A stretch of 64,000 bases of DNA from Helicobacter sp. 11S03491-1. Lineage in GTDB: Bacteria > Campylobacterota > Campylobacteria > Campylobacterales > Helicobacteraceae. The stretch is taken from positions 1 to 64,000 of the forward strand of contig NZ_MLAO01000011.1 of NCBI RefSeq assembly GCF_002272835.1. The letters run 5' to 3'. How positions within the stretch are numbered: position 1 is the first letter of the stretch; every line of letters begins with the position of its first letter. The notes below the pieces were generated by a model, which saw only the letters and a list, made by a program, of their open reading frames with translations, did no database searches and was not told the origin of the DNA. Shown piece by piece: positions 33,161 through 40,218 of the stretch. Made by a program: the position numbers and the translations under genes.

Positions 33161-33913
33161 TTATTTATTCATAAAATGATGAAGTCTTTTGTATTCGTCT
33201 TTATTTAAAAATCTTGTTTTTCCTACAGGCAAGGCATTTAAATGAATCCAACCATAACGAATACGTCGTAAATCAAGCACATCTCTTTTGAAATAAGCAA
33301 AAAATCTACGTAACTCACGATTTTTTCCTTCATGGATGCATACTTTAAGTTTAGAAAAATGCACATCATCTTTGCTTATTTCATATTTTACAAAAGGTGC
33401 AAAACGCATTTTTTGAATCCGGCTTTTCTCATGCGCGCCTGCTCTGGCATCGTTAAGTTCTAATCCATTAACCATTCCCTCGCATATTTCTTTGGTAACT
33501 TTTCCATTAATTTTAAGAATATATTCACGCTCCAAATCGCTTTCCATTAGGGCTTGGGCAACCTTTTTATTATCACTGAGCAATAAAACGCCCTCTGATG
33601 CAAAATCAAGTCTCCCTACCGGGACAAAATGTGCGTATTTCTTATCTAATGTGTCATAAATTACCCGCCTATTTCTATCGTCTTTTTTGCTTACAATCTC
33701 ACCCTTAGGCTTATGATAAACAATCACTGTATATAAATCTTCTTCTTTGGGCTTAACATACCTGCCATCGATAAAAACCCTCTGTCCTTCTTTCAAAATA
33801 CTCTGAAAACCGGCTTTAGTTTTTTCAATATTGACTCTTCCCTCTTTAATTAACAAATCAGCTTCTCTGCGAGAATATTTTGTATGATGAGAAATGAACT
33901 GATTTAATCTCAT
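33161..33913 (-). CDS. RluB/RsuA-family pseudouridine synthase
   Basis: A 250-residue enzyme with an N-terminal S4 RNA-binding domain (RLNQFISHHTKYSRREADLLIKEGRV) and the catalytic block PVGRLDFASEGVLLLSDN including the essential Asp. GKNRELRRFF is the third family block. It corresponds to HP1459. The ATG at 33913 overlaps the dnaE TGA by 4 nt, so it is translated from the dnaE message. Confidence 0.9.
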   Translation of the reverse strand: MRLNQFISHHTKYSRREADLLIKEGRVNIEKTKAGFQSILKEGQRVFIDGRYVKPKEEDLYTVIVYHKPKGEIVSKKDDRNRRVIYDTLDKKYAHFVPVGRLDFASEGVLLLSDNKKVAQALMESDLEREYILKINGKVTKEICEGMVNGLELNDARAGAHEKSRIQKMRFAPFVKYEISKDDVHFSKLKVCIHEGKNRELRRFFAYFKRDVLDLRRIRYGWIHLNALPVGKTRFLNKDEYKRLHHFMNK

Positions 33914-36900
33914 AATATATCTAACCATTCAAGTTCGCAAAAACTTTCTTTAATTTTTGTATTTACCTTGAGATTACTTATAAATTTATATTTTCTTTCT
34001 GTGTCATCAATGAGTACTTGAAGCTCGCGTTTGCCTTCAAATTTTTTGGCTTCTATCTTGAGTTTTTCAATCAAACTTATTTGAGTGTTCTTCTTTAACA
34101 CCACTGCCAAAGGACAAGTAGCATCGTTAAAATCTTGGGGTTTCATATCAAGAGGTATGCTCTCTTCTTCTTTTTGTTCAATAACTTTATACTCAAGTTT
34201 ATTTTTTACTTTTTTTGCTTGTTCTAAGTCCATAATTTCAAACAAACGCAATTGTATTTTTTCTTCACGCTCTTCAATTTTGCACTTAAAGGCTAAGGGC
34301 TTGGAAATATCAAATTTATCTAGCTCTTGAAGGTGTTTTTCAAACAACATCAATTCAATCTTACCATAGAGATCCAGAATATCTGCCTTGCCATAGACAT
34401 TTCCTGATTTGCTGACCTTTTTCTTGATATCAAGGACTTTACCTACAAGCATTATATTTGAACCAACTTCTAAATCCTCTAATTCTACACTTTTGGCTAC
34501 ATTTTTGATTGTCTTGATTTCTTTGGCAAATTCGTCCAAAGGATGCCCTGAAACACAAATTCCCAAACACTCATATTCATAATCCAGTAAAATTTTTGCA
34601 TCATATTCATCTTCTTGTTTTAAATCCAGAGAAATTGTTTGTATTTCTTCAGATTCATAAATCCCTTCTAATAGTGTTCCCTCTACCTTTAGTTTATTTT
34701 TTGATCTCCCTATTTCACAAATTTTATCAATATTTTTTAGCATTGTCGCACGCGTATAACCAAGCCCATCCAGACTCCCTGTTTTTATAAGAGGTTCCAG
34801 AATTCTTTTGGTAAGTTTAGTAAAATCAACCCTGGAAATAAAATCTTCTAAACTTTTGAATTTACCCCCACTTTCTCTGACCTCAATGATATTTTTTAGA
34901 GGTCCTTCTCCTGCCCCTTTAATGGCGCTCAATCCAAAAATAATTTTTTTGACAGGCTTAGTATTTTCATCTTCAAAATCACCCACACTAAAATCAAGCA
35001 TAGAAGTGTTGATATGGGGAGGAATAATTTCCATATCCAAAAGTTTAACTTCATCAATATATTTAGCCACAGATTCTATTTTGTCTGATTCGCTTGTCAG
35101 CATTGCAGCCATAAATTCATATTCATAATAAGTCTTTAAATAAGCAGTTTGAAAAGTCAGCATTGCATAAGCTGCGGAATGAGATTTGTTAAACCCATAC
35201 CCTGCAAATTTAACAATCAAATCCCAAAGCTCTTCGGCTTTTTGTTTATCAAATCCTTTGCTTTGAGCTCCCAAAGCAAATTTATTTTTATTATCTGCCA
35301 TAATTTGGGCATCTTTTTTTCCCATTGCCCGACGGATCAAATCTGCTTCTCCTAATGAAAAACCTCCAATGCTCCGGACAATTTGCATAACTTGCTCTTG
35401 ATAAACAATAGTTCCATATGTCGGCTTTAAGATAGATTCAAGTTCAGGAAACATATATTTGATAGGCTCACTTCCATGCTTGCGATTCACAAAATCATCA
35501 ACCATGCCTGACTCCATAGGACCGGGACGCCCCAAAGCAATAATAGCAATCACATCTTCAAAGCCGGAAGGCTTCAAACGCTTATTAAGTCCTTGAAACA
35601 TTCCTGATTCTACTTGGAATATGCCCACTGTGTTGCCACTTTGCATAGTTTTATAAACTTCAGGATCGTCAGTATCAATCGTCAAAAAATCCAAATTCTT
35701 TTGGTATCGTTGTGAAATAAGCTTAAGCGCATCATCAATCACAGTGAGTGTTTTTAAACCTAAAAAGTCAAATTTGATCAAATCAACAGGTTCAAGATAT
35801 TTCATCGAATATTGCGTTACAATAGCCCCGCCTGTTTTGTCGCTTGTATAAAGAGGAGTTTTGTGCCATAATTCTTTTTCGCTATCAACCACCAAAGCAG
35901 CTGCATGTTTGCCTGCATTGCGATTGAGTCCTTCAAGCATGAGTGAAAAATCCCAAACTTTTTTAGCAAGAGGATTGTTTTGAGTCAGTTCTGAAAGCTT
36001 AGGTTCAAGCTCCCATGCCCCATCTACCCATTCTCCATTTTTTTCATATTTTTGAAGCGTAATCCCCAGCTTATCAGGAATGAGTTTTGCCATGTCATCA
36101 GCTTCTTTATAGGGCATGTTCAGCACTCTTGCCACATCCCTGATAACACCCTTTGCAAGCATTTTACCAAAAGTAATAACTTGGGCAACATTATATTTGC
36201 CATATTTTCTAATCATATACTCAATAATTTCACCCCGACGTCTTTGACAAAAATCTGTATCAATATCAGGCATAGACACACGTTCAGGATTCAAAAATCG
36301 TTCAAAAAGCAAATCATATTTAAGAGGATCAATATTGGTGATTTTGAGACAAAATGCTACTAAGCTACCCGCTGCACTCCCTCTGCCTGGTCCTACAGGA
36401 ATGCCATTTTCCCTTGCGTATTTGATAAAATCCCATACAATCAACATATAGCCGGGAAATTTCATCTTATTAATGACTTCTATTTCTTGCTCTAATCTGT
36501 CTTTGTAGATTTGATATTTTTCTTGGGGAATAATCTTTAATCTTTCTTGCAGTCCTTCTCTGGCCTTGTAGGCAAAATAACTCGCATCATCATTGATATC
36601 AAGCCCTTCTATTTTAGCATATTCTTGGGTAAATTTAAACTTTGGAGGTGTGGGAGGGTTATGTTTTTCATCTTTGAGATCAATTTCAAGATTACATTTT
36701 TGGGCAATTTCTTCTGTGTTTTTGAGAGCTTCAGGTATATCTGCAAAAAGTTTCGCCATTTGTTCGGGGGATTTGACATAAAATTCTTGTACAGAATGTT
36801 TGAGCCTATCTTTGTCATCAAGTGTTTTTCCCATTGCTACACACATTGCGACTTCTTGAGCATTTGCGTCTTTTTGGTTGGTATAATGTGTATCGTTAGT

Positions 36901-37527
36901 GGCAATAAGTTTAATCCCTGTTTGTAGCGAAATTCTAATTAATTGTTCATCAATAAAAGCCTGATCGGCAATCCCATGGCGCATAATCTCTATATAAAAA
37001 TCATCCCCAAAAATATCTTGATATTCAAGTGCGACTTCCTTGGCTATCTCATAGCCTTTTGCACCAAACTTAATATTTCTAGGGTTATTGGTATTGAGTT
37101 GCCAACTTACCTCTCCTTGCAAACATGCTGAGGAACAAATAAGCCCTGCAGAATGCTCACGCAATATTTTTTTGTTGATTCTGGGATAATAATAAAATCC
37201 CTCAATAAAAGCCATAGAACTTAAATACATCAGATTTTTGTAACCTTCTTCATTTTTGGCATAAAGGCAAAGATGAAAACGTTGTTTAGATTCTTTGCTT
37301 GCCAAATCTTGGGCATTATGAAGGTAAGTTTCAATACCAATGATAGGCTTAATACCTTCTTTTTTCATCGTCATATAAAAATCAATAGCTCCAAACATAT
37401 TGCCATGATCGGTCATACTGACACTTTTCATTCCTAAAGCTTTGATTTTTTTGGCAAGGGCTTTGATTTTATTAGCCCCATCAAGGAGAGAATATTCTGT
37501 ATGCAAATGTAAATGTGTATAACTCAT
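33910..37527 (-). CDS. dnaE: DNA polymerase III alpha subunit
   Basis: A 1205-residue replicative polymerase. The PHP domain opens YTHLHLHTEYSLLDGANKIK and includes SMTDHGNMFGAIDFY; the catalytic palm has PGRGSAAGSLVAFCL and MPDIDTDFCQRRRGE with the active-site aspartates; the fingers have GRPGPMESGMVDDFVNRK and YGFNKSHSAAYAML. An OB-fold region follows near residue 1000. Length is typical for the DnaE1 class in Campylobacterota. No gene lies just upstream; the long AT-rich gap to 38050 should hold its promoter. Confidence 0.97.
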   Translation of the reverse strand: MSYTHLHLHTEYSLLDGANKIKALAKKIKALGMKSVSMTDHGNMFGAIDFYMTMKKEGIKPIIGIETYLHNAQDLASKESKQRFHLCLYAKNEEGYKNLMYLSSMAFIEGFYYYPRINKKILREHSAGLICSSACLQGEVSWQLNTNNPRNIKFGAKGYEIAKEVALEYQDIFGDDFYIEIMRHGIADQAFIDEQLIRISLQTGIKLIATNDTHYTNQKDANAQEVAMCVAMGKTLDDKDRLKHSVQEFYVKSPEQMAKLFADIPEALKNTEEIAQKCNLEIDLKDEKHNPPTPPKFKFTQEYAKIEGLDINDDASYFAYKAREGLQERLKIIPQEKYQIYKDRLEQEIEVINKMKFPGYMLIVWDFIKYARENGIPVGPGRGSAAGSLVAFCLKITNIDPLKYDLLFERFLNPERVSMPDIDTDFCQRRRGEIIEYMIRKYGKYNVAQVITFGKMLAKGVIRDVARVLNMPYKEADDMAKLIPDKLGITLQKYEKNGEWVDGAWELEPKLSELTQNNPLAKKVWDFSLMLEGLNRNAGKHAAALVVDSEKELWHKTPLYTSDKTGGAIVTQYSMKYLEPVDLIKFDFLGLKTLTVIDDALKLISQRYQKNLDFLTIDTDDPEVYKTMQSGNTVGIFQVESGMFQGLNKRLKPSGFEDVIAIIALGRPGPMESGMVDDFVNRKHGSEPIKYMFPELESILKPTYGTIVYQEQVMQIVRSIGGFSLGEADLIRRAMGKKDAQIMADNKNKFALGAQSKGFDKQKAEELWDLIVKFAGYGFNKSHSAAYAMLTFQTAYLKTYYEYEFMAAMLTSESDKIESVAKYIDEVKLLDMEIIPPHINTSMLDFSVGDFEDENTKPVKKIIFGLSAIKGAGEGPLKNIIEVRESGGKFKSLEDFISRVDFTKLTKRILEPLIKTGSLDGLGYTRATMLKNIDKICEIGRSKNKLKVEGTLLEGIYESEEIQTISLDLKQEDEYDAKILLDYEYECLGICVSGHPLDEFAKEIKTIKNVAKSVELEDLEVGSNIMLVGKVLDIKKKVSKSGNVYGKADILDLYGKIELMLFEKHLQELDKFDISKPLAFKCKIEEREEKIQLRLFEIMDLEQAKKVKNKLEYKVIEQKEEESIPLDMKPQDFNDATCPLAVVLKKNTQISLIEKLKIEAKKFEGKRELQVLIDDTERKYKFISNLKVNTKIKESFCELEWLDIL

Positions 37528-38026: not shown

Positions 38027-38055
38027 TTCAAATAAAGACATAATTGTGTTATAAA
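38027..38055 (+). promoter_or_regulatory. promoter of the 31-aa peptide gene
   Basis: TTCAAA at 38027-38032 and TATAAA at 38050-38055 with a 17-base spacer, and TGT immediately before the -10 (extended). It would give a leader of about 50 nt ending in AAAGGG before the ATG. Confidence 0.55.
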
Positions 38056-38111
38056 ACGTGTCATAAAAAAGATTTAAAAAGACTTTTGAAATCCAAAAGA
38101 AAGGGAACACA

Positions 38112-38207
38112 ATGAAAAAGCTAAGATTATTCGCACTAATCCTGCAAATTGTCTTCTATTTGATAGCGATTTGCAAACTCTTCTTTTGGAGAAGAGACCC
38201 CGTTTAA
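38112..38207 (+). CDS. 31-aa hydrophobic peptide, candidate type I toxin
   Basis: The peptide starts MKKLRLFALILQIVFYLIAI, continues through one membrane span to CKLFFW, and ends RRDPV. Basic residues flank a helix of about 20 residues, the layout of membrane-acting type I toxins such as TisB or ShoB. AAAGGG lies 6 nt before the ATG. Bases 38106-38115, covering the start codon, are perfectly complementary to 38221-38230 after the stop, with a further 4 bp (38118-38121 with 38215-38218). Two hairpins fill the 3' end of the frame. A consensus promoter on the other strand would produce an antisense RNA over the whole gene. I know of no named family for the peptide; toxicity is inferred from architecture. 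Confidence 0.65.
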   Translation: MKKLRLFALILQIVFYLIAICKLFFWRRDPV

Positions 38208-38230
38208 CGGGGTTGCTTAATCATTGTGTT
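38114..38230 (-). ncRNA. predicted antisense RNA opposite the 31-aa peptide gene
   Basis: Predicted from an extended -10 (TGG then TATAAT, 38244-38236 on the minus strand), giving a start near 38229-38230. The RNA of about 115 nt would contain hairpins at 38213-38197 (ACCCCG/CGGGGT) and 38196-38178 (CTCTTCT/AGAAGAG), then end in a 7-bp hairpin (38143-38137 with 38129-38123) followed by five T residues at 38119-38115. It covers the full peptide frame and would pair with its mRNA. Expression is not shown by sequence. Confidence 0.5.
38178..38213. repeat. two adjacent hairpins at the peptide gene's 3' end
   Basis: CTCTTCT/AGAAGAG (38178-38184 with 38190-38196) and ACCCCG/CGGGGT (38197-38202 with 38208-38213) abut without a gap. 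The second spans the stop codon. Neither is followed by a good T run on the plus strand, so they look structural rather than terminating. Confidence 0.8.
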
Positions 38231-38235
38231 AGCCA

Positions 38236-38244
38236 ATTATACCA
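38236..38244 (-). promoter_or_regulatory. extended -10 promoter for the antisense RNA
   Basis: Minus-strand TGGTATAAT is a perfect TGn-TATAAT. No good -35 is visible, but Helicobacter housekeeping promoters often lack one. Confidence 0.55.
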
Positions 38245-38256
38245 CAGGAGACGCAA

Positions 38257-38367
38257 ATGGACTTAGAATTTTTGCTAATCATTATTTTAGCAGGTTGGGT
38301 TGGGGTGAATGAGTGGCGATTAAATAAGCTTGAGAAGAAGATAAAAACATTCCAAGAAAGACTCTAA
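38257..38367 (+). CDS. 36-aa membrane peptide
   Basis: MDLEFLLIIILAGWVGVNEW forms one membrane helix; the remainder (RLNKLEKKIKTFQERL) is an amphipathic, coiled-coil-like tail. ACAGGAG sits 7 nt before the ATG, a strong ribosome-binding site. A good terminator follows at 38380. It lies 49 bp after the candidate toxin and may share its transcript. The N-anchor plus coiled-coil layout resembles small phage or plasmid accessory peptides. I do not recognise it. Confidence 0.6.
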   Translation: MDLEFLLIIILAGWVGVNEWRLNKLEKKIKTFQERL

Positions 38368-38379
38368 CCATTGCCGGAG

Positions 38380-38408
38380 CCCGCTTCTATTGAACGGAAG
38401 TGGGTTTT
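38380..38408 (+). terminator. rho-independent terminator after the peptide genes
   Basis: CCCGCTTC (38380-38387) pairs with GAAGTGGG (38397-38404, one G-U) and is followed directly by TTTT. It ends the small-peptide unit and overlaps the upstream region of the IbrA-like remnant. Confidence 0.8.
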
Positions 38409-38456: not shown

Positions 38457-39014
38457 ATGGAAATGCAAGTTTTTCAAGAAGAAATCATTGATGAGAAATA
38501 TTCGGAAAGCTCAAAACAATATTTGGATATAAATGTCCTTGAAGCCACAAAAGGTCGGCTATGGTTTGTATTGGATAACTTTAAAAATATCTGCATTAGT
38601 TTCAGCGGGGGTAAAGATAGCACCATACTCCTCCATCTTGTGCGTGAATATTTAAAACACAAACCCGAATTAAAAACAAAAAAGAATCTCTTTATTTATC
38701 ACTTGGATTATGAAGCCCAATATAACCAAACCACAAAGTTTGTGCAACAAACCCTCCAAGAATGTAAGAAAGAAGGCTTTAAGATATTTTATATCTGCAT
38801 GCCCTTCAAAGCCCAATGTGCTTGTTCGATGTATCAAACCTATTGGAGACCTTGGGCGATAGAAGACAAAGACAAATGGCTAAGAGAACCTCCAGGTTAT
38901 AGCATTACAGAGGAAAACCATTCTTTTGATTTTTGGAGCAGGGATTTGAGCGATTGCGCTTTTAATGTTGAGCTATTATTAAAATTAATTTTAATAATAG
39001 CTTCTATAGAATAA
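38457..39014 (+). pseudogene. 3'-truncated IbrA-like (DUF3440) PAPS-reductase-family gene
   Basis: The 185-residue frame begins near MEMQVFQEEIID (ATG 38457; an in-frame ATG at 38409 lacks a ribosome-binding site). ICISFSGGKDSTILLHLVRE holds the SGGKDS PP-loop (residues 50-55) of ATP pyrophosphatases related to PAPS reductase. The later blocks (CMPFKAQCACSMYQTYWRPWAIEDKDKW; REPPGYSITEENHSFDFW) fit DUF3440/IbrA proteins found in prophages and islands, which are usually about 400 residues. Similarity stops at about 38960, and the last codons run into a 32-bp palindrome. The C-terminal half is missing, and no ibrB partner follows, so it is probably inactive. Confidence 0.65.
38971..39002. repeat. 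32-bp perfect palindrome
   Basis: AGCTATTATTAAAATT is followed at once by its exact reverse complement, with no loop bases between. It lies at the point where the IbrA-like gene breaks off and may be a bidirectional terminator, a recombination site or a fold-back scar. Confidence 0.9.
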
Positions 39015-39335: not shown

Positions 39336-39731
39336 ATGGTTTTGAAGGTTTTTTTTATTATATTCCTATGGAGTTCTTTTGTATATGCAGGTCCGGTGTG
39401 CAAATATAAACTCAATGATTTTAAAGCTCAGATTGATTATGCAAAAAAAAATCATTTATCCCAAAAGGTCAAAAAACTAGAAAAAACTATGTCAGATTTT
39501 CAAAAAACTTGCAAAGATTCTGATATTTTGGCAGAAATCAACCAAAATATTCAAATAACTCAAAAAAATCTCCAACAAGCCCGGACAAACTTTAATAACG
39601 CACAAATTGAGGGCAATGCGCATCAAATCAGACAAACAAGCATACAACTCAAAATTGCAAATCTTGAATACATTGCTGCTAAACAAGAGCTTTTGAGAAT
39701 GAAAGATTTATTAAAAACACAAAGACAATAA
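39336..39731 (+). CDS. DUF1090 family periplasmic protein, copy 1
   Basis: A 131-residue protein with a signal peptide (MVLKVFFIIFLWSSFVYAGP, cleavage after YA). The mature part matches DUF1090/YqjC: CKYKLNDFKAQIDYAKKN, a second Cys in DFQKTCKD, then a long charged helix. It should fold as a helical hairpin fixed by one disulfide in the periplasm; its function is unknown. AAAGG precedes the ATG. A paralogue follows 82 bp downstream. Confidence 0.8.
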   Translation: MVLKVFFIIFLWSSFVYAGPVCKYKLNDFKAQIDYAKKNHLSQKVKKLEKTMSDFQKTCKDSDILAEINQNIQITQKNLQQARTNFNNAQIEGNAHQIRQTSIQLKIANLEYIAAKQELLRMKDLLKTQRQ

Positions 39732-39813: not shown

Positions 39814-40218
39814 ATGAAGAAATTTTTTATTTTAAGTGCTGTAGCTTGTGGTATTTTGATAGCAGGACCTGTCTGTGATTTTAAAGAAAAAGATGTGCTT
39901 TCTCAGATTGATTATGCAACCAAACATAATCATAAAGATAAGATTTCAGGTTTGCAAAAAGCCTTGAAAGAATTACGAGATCATTGCAAAGATAATATCG
40001 TTTTAAGCGAACTTGAACTTGATGTCCAAAAGCTTGAAAATAAGGTGATTGAAGCAAAGTCAAAAATAACTCAAGCTCAAGCAAAAGGTAAGGCTGATCG
40101 TATTAAAAAAGCAGAAATGAAGTTAAGATTAATTGAAACAGAATTAGCCTCAAAAAAAGACGAACTTCAAAGGATGCAGGATTTAGCTAAGGGAAATAAT
40201 CCTCAACCAAAGTCTTAA
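39814..40218 (+). CDS. DUF1090 family periplasmic protein, copy 2
   Basis: A 134-residue paralogue of the preceding gene. The signal peptide is MKKFFILSAVACGILIAGP; the mature part starts CDFKEKDVLSQIDYATKHN, with the second Cys in LRDHCKDN and the charged helix KAEMKLRLIETELASKKDEL. TTAGGAGAA gives a strong ribosome-binding site. The two copies share the framework AGPVC-x-n-QIDYA-x-C-KD but are clearly diverged, so the duplication is not recent. Confidence 0.8.
   Translation: MKKFFILSAVACGILIAGPVCDFKEKDVLSQIDYATKHNHKDKISGLQKALKELRDHCKDNIVLSELELDVQKLENKVIEAKSKITQAQAKGKADRIKKAEMKLRLIETELASKKDELQRMQDLAKGNNPQPKS

Follow-up and report, generated by a model that had tools for sequence, protein, structure and literature searches.

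The start codon of p1, a gene for a small hydrophobic peptide in the 64,000-nt stretch of Helicobacter sp. 11S03491-1 DNA analysed here (the window), is complementary to an element just past the p1 stop codon, and the two segments do not drift apart in homologues: 40 of 42 loci keep the pairing while its letters differ. It is this natural compensatory variation that lends strong support to the proposal of the initial annotation, according to which a long-distance interaction hides the translation start. Judged from the sequences compared, the resulting lock is very probably a selected RNA structure, and the locus is probably a member of a prophage-borne family that resembles type I toxin–antitoxin systems. 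Sequence and statistics together establish the pairing, its compensatory conservation, a −10 element on the opposite strand and constraint on the coding of p1. The features of the locus are collected in Table 1.

Table 1. Features of the p1–p2 locus, in positions of the window
Feature	Position	Strand	Remarks
Candidate sense promoter of p1	38027..38055	+	TTCAAA (38027-38032), 17 nt, TATAAA (38050-38055), TGT before; read by hand
Predicted p1 transcription start	near 38062	+	From the candidate sense promoter
Leader motif AAATCC	38089-38094	+	AAATCC/T in 21/42 leaders vs 1.7% of shuffles
p1 Shine-Dalgarno region AAAGGGA	38100-38106	+	Leader motif and Shine-Dalgarno region together span 38089..38106
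5' arm of the long-distance stem, AACACAATGA	38106..38115	+	Contains the start codon; compensatory changes in homologues
p1, 31-aa peptide MKKLRLFALILQIVFYLIAICKLFFWRRDPV, hydrophobic and cationic; putative membrane toxin	38112..38207	+	42 homologues
Hairpin ACCCCGT-TTA-ACGGGGT, overlapping the p1 stop codon	38197..38213	+	MFE structure, within the closed fold
3' arm (anti-start element), TCATTGTGTT	38221..38230	+	Fold and covariation
Extended −10 TGGTATAAT of the predicted antisense promoter	38236..38244	-	TGNTANAAT perfect in 35/42 loci
Predicted antisense RNA start	about 38229-38230 (at the arm)	-	Reads toward lower coordinates
p2 Shine-Dalgarno AGGAG	38246..38250	+	Kept beside the antisense −10 in homologues
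p2, 36-aa ORF MDLEFLLIIILAGWVGVNEWRLNKLEKKIKTFQERL	38257..38367	+	One hydrophobic stretch and a charged tail; homologues by profile
Candidate terminator hairpin after p2, CCCGCTTC...GGAAGTGGG then TTTT	38380..38408	+	Read from sequence

In the window, the ATG of p1 (38112-38114) lies within the 5' arm, which is the exact reverse complement of the 3' arm over 10 nt, as the initial annotation had it; the inner extension described there is also present, 38118-38121 (AAGC) facing 38215-38218 (GCTT) across an AA/AA 2x2 mismatch. The claim that such a match is unlikely by chance holds as well, with P = 0.00045 at this locus, from 20,000 dinucleotide shuffles of 38208-38256, that perfect complementarity would include the ATG and extend over 10 nt or more. 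Folding of the RNA from 38062 to 38260 (199 nt), which had been suggested as a check, returns the full stem in both the MFE and the centroid structures, at −56.5 kcal/mol (z = −5.4; 0/200 shuffles equally stable), and the hairpin at the stop codon has a counterpart at the same place in most p1 loci. For the window AUG, the predicted probability of being unpaired is 0.001-0.003 if the RNA is taken to the p2 start, 0.002-0.003 if it is taken to the terminator, and 0.76-0.99 if it ends 5' of the 3' arm. The mRNA does not clearly end at the 3' arm, because p2 starts 27 nt past it; terminator-like signals ahead of p2 are found in 24/42 p1 loci. The window copy is a weakened one, in its promoter (9/12) and also in its Shine-Dalgarno region. 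By itself, the window locus makes the pairing only moderately surprising; it is the homologues that are decisive.

When 121 Helicobacteraceae genomes were searched with profiles of p1 and p2 and the loci were read, 42 p1 units came to light in 18 of the genomes. In a nineteenth genome (G176), which belongs to another genus than G074, the p1 copies are the same as in G074, and the p1–p2 array common to the two (L397, L398) is a sign of recent horizontal transfer. The genome from which the window comes (G000, 1.83 Mb) carries a second p1 copy on contig C10, and in another family of the same order a unit (L441, in G385) matches by eye, TTTTCATCTTT with AAAGATGAAAA. How far the letters of the arms vary is seen in the pairs GGATAAGATGA/TCATCTTATCC and GATACGATGA/TCATCGTATC, in GACACAAGATGAA/TTCATCTTGTGTT, which contains one G·U, and in CGATACAATGA/TCATTGTATCG and AAAACAAGATGG/CCATCTTGTTTT. 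The duplex energy of each start region was computed with the downstream segment of the same unit and with those of every other unit; over the 42 loci it averaged −14.1 kcal/mol for own arms against −7.8 for swapped arms; the summed own-arm energy, −594, was reached by 0/2000 permutations (mean −336, sd 16; z about −16). Moreover, for 29/42 units no shuffled downstream segment was as good in 200 tries. Across the units, the AUG is predicted to be unpaired with a mean probability of 0.08 in full-length RNA, 0.64 in RNA cut before the arm and 0.49 with the arm shuffled.

The changes were also counted column by column over 27 distinct ungapped arm pairs, against shuffles that leave relatedness in. 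Paired cells amount to 90% vs 66% in shuffles, a percentage that leans toward structure since the arm register was picked by complementarity. Double-change cells number 78 vs 23 in shuffles (0/500 reaching), with double changes in 8/11 base pairs, and covariation is 0.649 vs 0.200 shuffled (0/500), never exceeding 0.115 once the register is slid. Among the non-Watson-Crick cells from −8 to +2, 23 are G·U on the sense RNA vs 4 on the antisense only (binomial P 1.6e-4); with the counted positions shifted to −7..+5, the numbers are 21 (sense) vs 16 (antisense). This asymmetry favours selection on the mRNA but is suggestive only, and a mutation bias from C to T would have the same effect. Two of the 42 p1 copies (G001b and G068) have no recognisable pairing and a few (G173, G078) pair weakly; these may represent decay or exceptions. 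In Helicobacter mesocricetorum (L151) and at L055, the p1 frame is broken and most of the pairing between the start and the 3' arm is still there. One genome, G004, harbours at least 11 p1 units with nine different start-codon arm sequences (L039, L040, L403, L417, L428), and avoidance of cross-talk is a possible reason for the differing codes.

A sense promoter of the form TTGACA-17-TATAAT, or near it, is found at most p1 loci, where the 5' leader measures about 37-54 nt, and UCC/GGA pairing between leader and Shine-Dalgarno sequence is predicted in the nascent RNA at several of the loci. On the opposite strand, the extended −10 TGNTANAAT is perfect in 35/42 loci vs 0.4% of shuffles, and is present with at most one mismatch in 39/42 loci vs 9% of shuffles; its two free positions vary in promoter fashion, and it sits 0-9 nt from the 3' arm. 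The predicted antisense promoter adjoins the arm, and the predicted antisense RNA would therefore begin there, its 5' end copying the start-codon segment. An antisense promoter within the p1 ORF, as in aapA/IsoA, was considered and dropped, there being no enrichment of antisense −10 elements in that position. Terminator-like signals near the p1 3' end (at or below −8 kcal/mol) occur in 14/42 loci vs 6.5% in shuffles; such signals are enriched but not general, and an antisense terminator is not clearly conserved. The terminator hairpin that follows p2 in the window is kept by the paralogue on contig C10 with changed letters.

The p1 homologues are 18-31 aa long, with hydropathy above 1.6 in 40/41 and a mean net charge of +3. 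Among close members, and beyond the first four codons, pN is about 0.22 vs a pS of about 0.64; p1 is a coding gene, because pN well below pS indicates purifying selection. Nearly every p1 is followed by p2, a membrane-like small ORF product with a hydrophobic stretch and a charged tail, and XRE-like or phage antirepressor genes often lie downstream of p2. p2-like ORFs are also found with no p1 upstream, at L409 (G004:C12:31079-31186) and L412 (G000:C7:11359-11466). From 38236 to 38367, the window was compared with the copy on contig C10 of the same genome (L405): p2 and its leader are identical, and p1 and the arms differ, at about 70% DNA identity. It is as if the cassette of lock plus peptide had been exchanged as a block.

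Prophage records also contain these units, namely BK070151 and BK070152 (Helicobacter sp. 13S00477-4), BK070157 (uncultured Helicobacter) and BK070133 (H. pullorum); in all of them the pairing is intact and p1 is absent from the annotated features. The units of BK070152 are also found in genome G004. In the window, p2 is followed at 38457-39014 by a truncated phage-type phosphoadenosine phosphosulfate (PAPS) reductase gene (phrog_2302), also weakly DndC/BrxP-like (PP-loop), which suggests a prophage remnant beside dnaE (33910-37527). Further along, at 39336-39731 and 39814-40218, are tandem small ORFs, the first of which matches DUF1090; the second resembles the first by eye.

We propose that, in the p1 mRNA, the start codon and the spacer that precedes it pair with the anti-start element, which comes shortly after the stop codon, and so close a multi-branched fold; locked in this manner, the full-length RNA would not be translated in the cell. 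The promoter on the opposite strand would give rise to an antisense RNA that starts right at the anti-start element and copies the start-codon arm in its 5' end, which would make it a competitor of the start codon for binding to the 3' arm. This RNA would attack the open, translatable mRNA, probably via RNase III. The p1 peptide would then be made only when the lock has been removed, perhaps by the 3' trimming suggested in the initial annotation, and the antisense RNA is scarce, and, as a putative toxin, would act on the membrane. Counting against the model are the weakened promoter and Shine-Dalgarno region of the window copy, the few p1 copies that pair poorly or not at all and the lack of a clearly conserved antisense terminator; nor does p2 find an explanation within it.

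Several other readings of the locus have to be weighed. In one of them, p1 would be a leader ORF and not a toxin, with the lock setting ribosome entry and the translation of p1, or the stem, tuning p2 and the downstream XRE or antirepressor gene. The presence of p2 behind nearly every p1 and often of a regulator gene behind p2, the existence of orphan p2 copies, and a p2 Shine-Dalgarno sequence 16 nt past the 3' arm, near enough for steric coupling, all fit this arrangement. In the locked fold, however, the p2 Shine-Dalgarno sequence is predicted to be mostly free, purifying selection on p1 and its steady hydrophobic and cationic character exceed the needs of a leader, and a dedicated antisense promoter in 35/42 loci is typical of type I toxins; we thus regard a leader function as unlikely. 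About as improbable, in our estimation, is that p1 and p2 form a protein pair in which the lock only balances stoichiometry; p2 might, for example, be a membrane peptide that confers immunity to the toxin p1, or both might be membrane peptides of the phage. That p2 accompanies nearly all p1 copies and can occur without p1 agrees with such a pair, but p1 and p2 are both without a family match and the nearby antisense promoter would be superfluous.

The arms could also act as DNA and have no function in RNA. They would then be an inverted repeat (an invertible segment, a recombination site or a site bound by a protein) whose identity is maintained through gene conversion or template switching. 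Their distance, about 100-130 bp, is compatible with this idea, and concerted evolution could mimic covariation. The arms, however, are always centred on the start codon, their letters vary among loci, unlike recombinase sites, and no inverted orientation of p1 was noticed; moreover, gene conversion would yield perfect repeats and not the excess of sense G·U (23 vs 4), to which C-to-T bias may contribute. We consider a role as DNA very improbable. The complementarity at one locus might also be due to chance, since other small ORFs in the window have 10-nt complements nearby, but with P = 4.5e-4 at the locus itself and compensatory conservation in 40 loci this explanation is refuted by the homologues, and we assign it next to no probability.

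The predicted RNA lock invites comparison with aapA1 and aapA3 of H. pylori, in which a long-distance interaction silences the full-length mRNA and the 3'-trimmed form is translated, and in which IsoA, from a promoter inside the aapA ORF, attacks the trimmed mRNA (PMC6733600, PMC8322730); the aapA lock works by occlusion of the Shine-Dalgarno sequence (PMC6733600). The p1 family shares with aapA/IsoA a hydrophobic cationic peptide of about 30 aa, a 5'-3' interaction by which the ribosome-binding region is concealed (predicted for p1), antisense transcription (predicted in the p1 family from the promoter) and several copies per genome; half of the p1 leaders also have in common with the aapA1 leader an anti-Shine-Dalgarno-like AAATCC ahead of the Shine-Dalgarno sequence. 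The peptides, in contrast, are not similar: a search with AapA1 in 120 genomes of the family gave matches in other genera (mostly g6), none of which is a p1 locus, and in the genome of the window no match at E <= 0.1. Whereas the predicted 5' arm spans −45 to +6 in aapA1 copies, the pairing of p1 is on the start codon and spacer; the antisense −10 of the p1 family lies beyond the 3' arm and the IsoA promoter inside the ORF; and p1 is followed by p2. An anti-Shine-Dalgarno element inside the ORF, like aSD2 of aapA3, is unsupported in the p1 loci (mean −5.1 vs −4.4 shuffled, better in 24/42). Thus, the p1 family is aapA-like, and is not aapA by sequence or by the predicted position of its antisense promoter.

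The Hok peptide we take to be unrelated to p1 in length and sequence. The 3' end of the hok mRNA is described as pairing with the 5' end until 3' processing (PMC6733600), and the likeness to p1 lies in a start region inactivated in the full-length RNA by 5'-3' pairing, predicted for p1; the position of the antisense RNA is other than that predicted in the p1 family. With yonT/yoyJ/SR6, bsrG/SR4 and txpA/RatA of B. subtilis, as covered in the parts of the sources used, the family shares a prophage-type location and an antisense RNA (predicted for p1) convergent at the 3' end of the toxin mRNA, and with yonT/yoyJ also a putative message of two small ORFs, toxic in that system, which have the antisense lying between them (PMC5848175, PMC8167048). 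A long-distance lock of this kind on the start codon is not among the features described in those parts (PMC5848175, PMC8167048). The peptides are unrelated.

Searches of p1, p2 and the RNA against Pfam, NCBIfam, PADLOC, PHROGs and Rfam gave no significant family match, and p1 and p2 found nothing in a plasmid collection. A wide DNA scan for the leader motif in collections of genome contigs and viral contigs yielded matches that were for the most part due to chance, and only the one in Helicobacter mesocricetorum, with its frameshifted p1, was useful; the leader pattern combined with ATTATACC at a gap of 117-147 nt rose little above the control outside genus g1. It is possible, and we put it forward tentatively, that the units constitute a new phage-borne toxin–antitoxin family in which one short element would serve as both self-lock and antisense landing site, so that ribosome access, the lock and antitoxin binding would be mutually exclusive and each copy would have its own pairing code; novelty was judged against the family libraries and the open-access literature.

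In any event, locking of the start site by a long-distance interaction, which has been worked out in detail for aapA of H. pylori, appears also in an unrelated, prophage-spread peptide family of Helicobacter. The natural compensatory variants, about 40 in number, are ready-made mutants, and with at least 11 copies and nine arm codes in a single genome, the opening of the lock, the avoidance of cross-talk and the benefit to a phage of membrane peptides that stay silent can now be put to direct tests.
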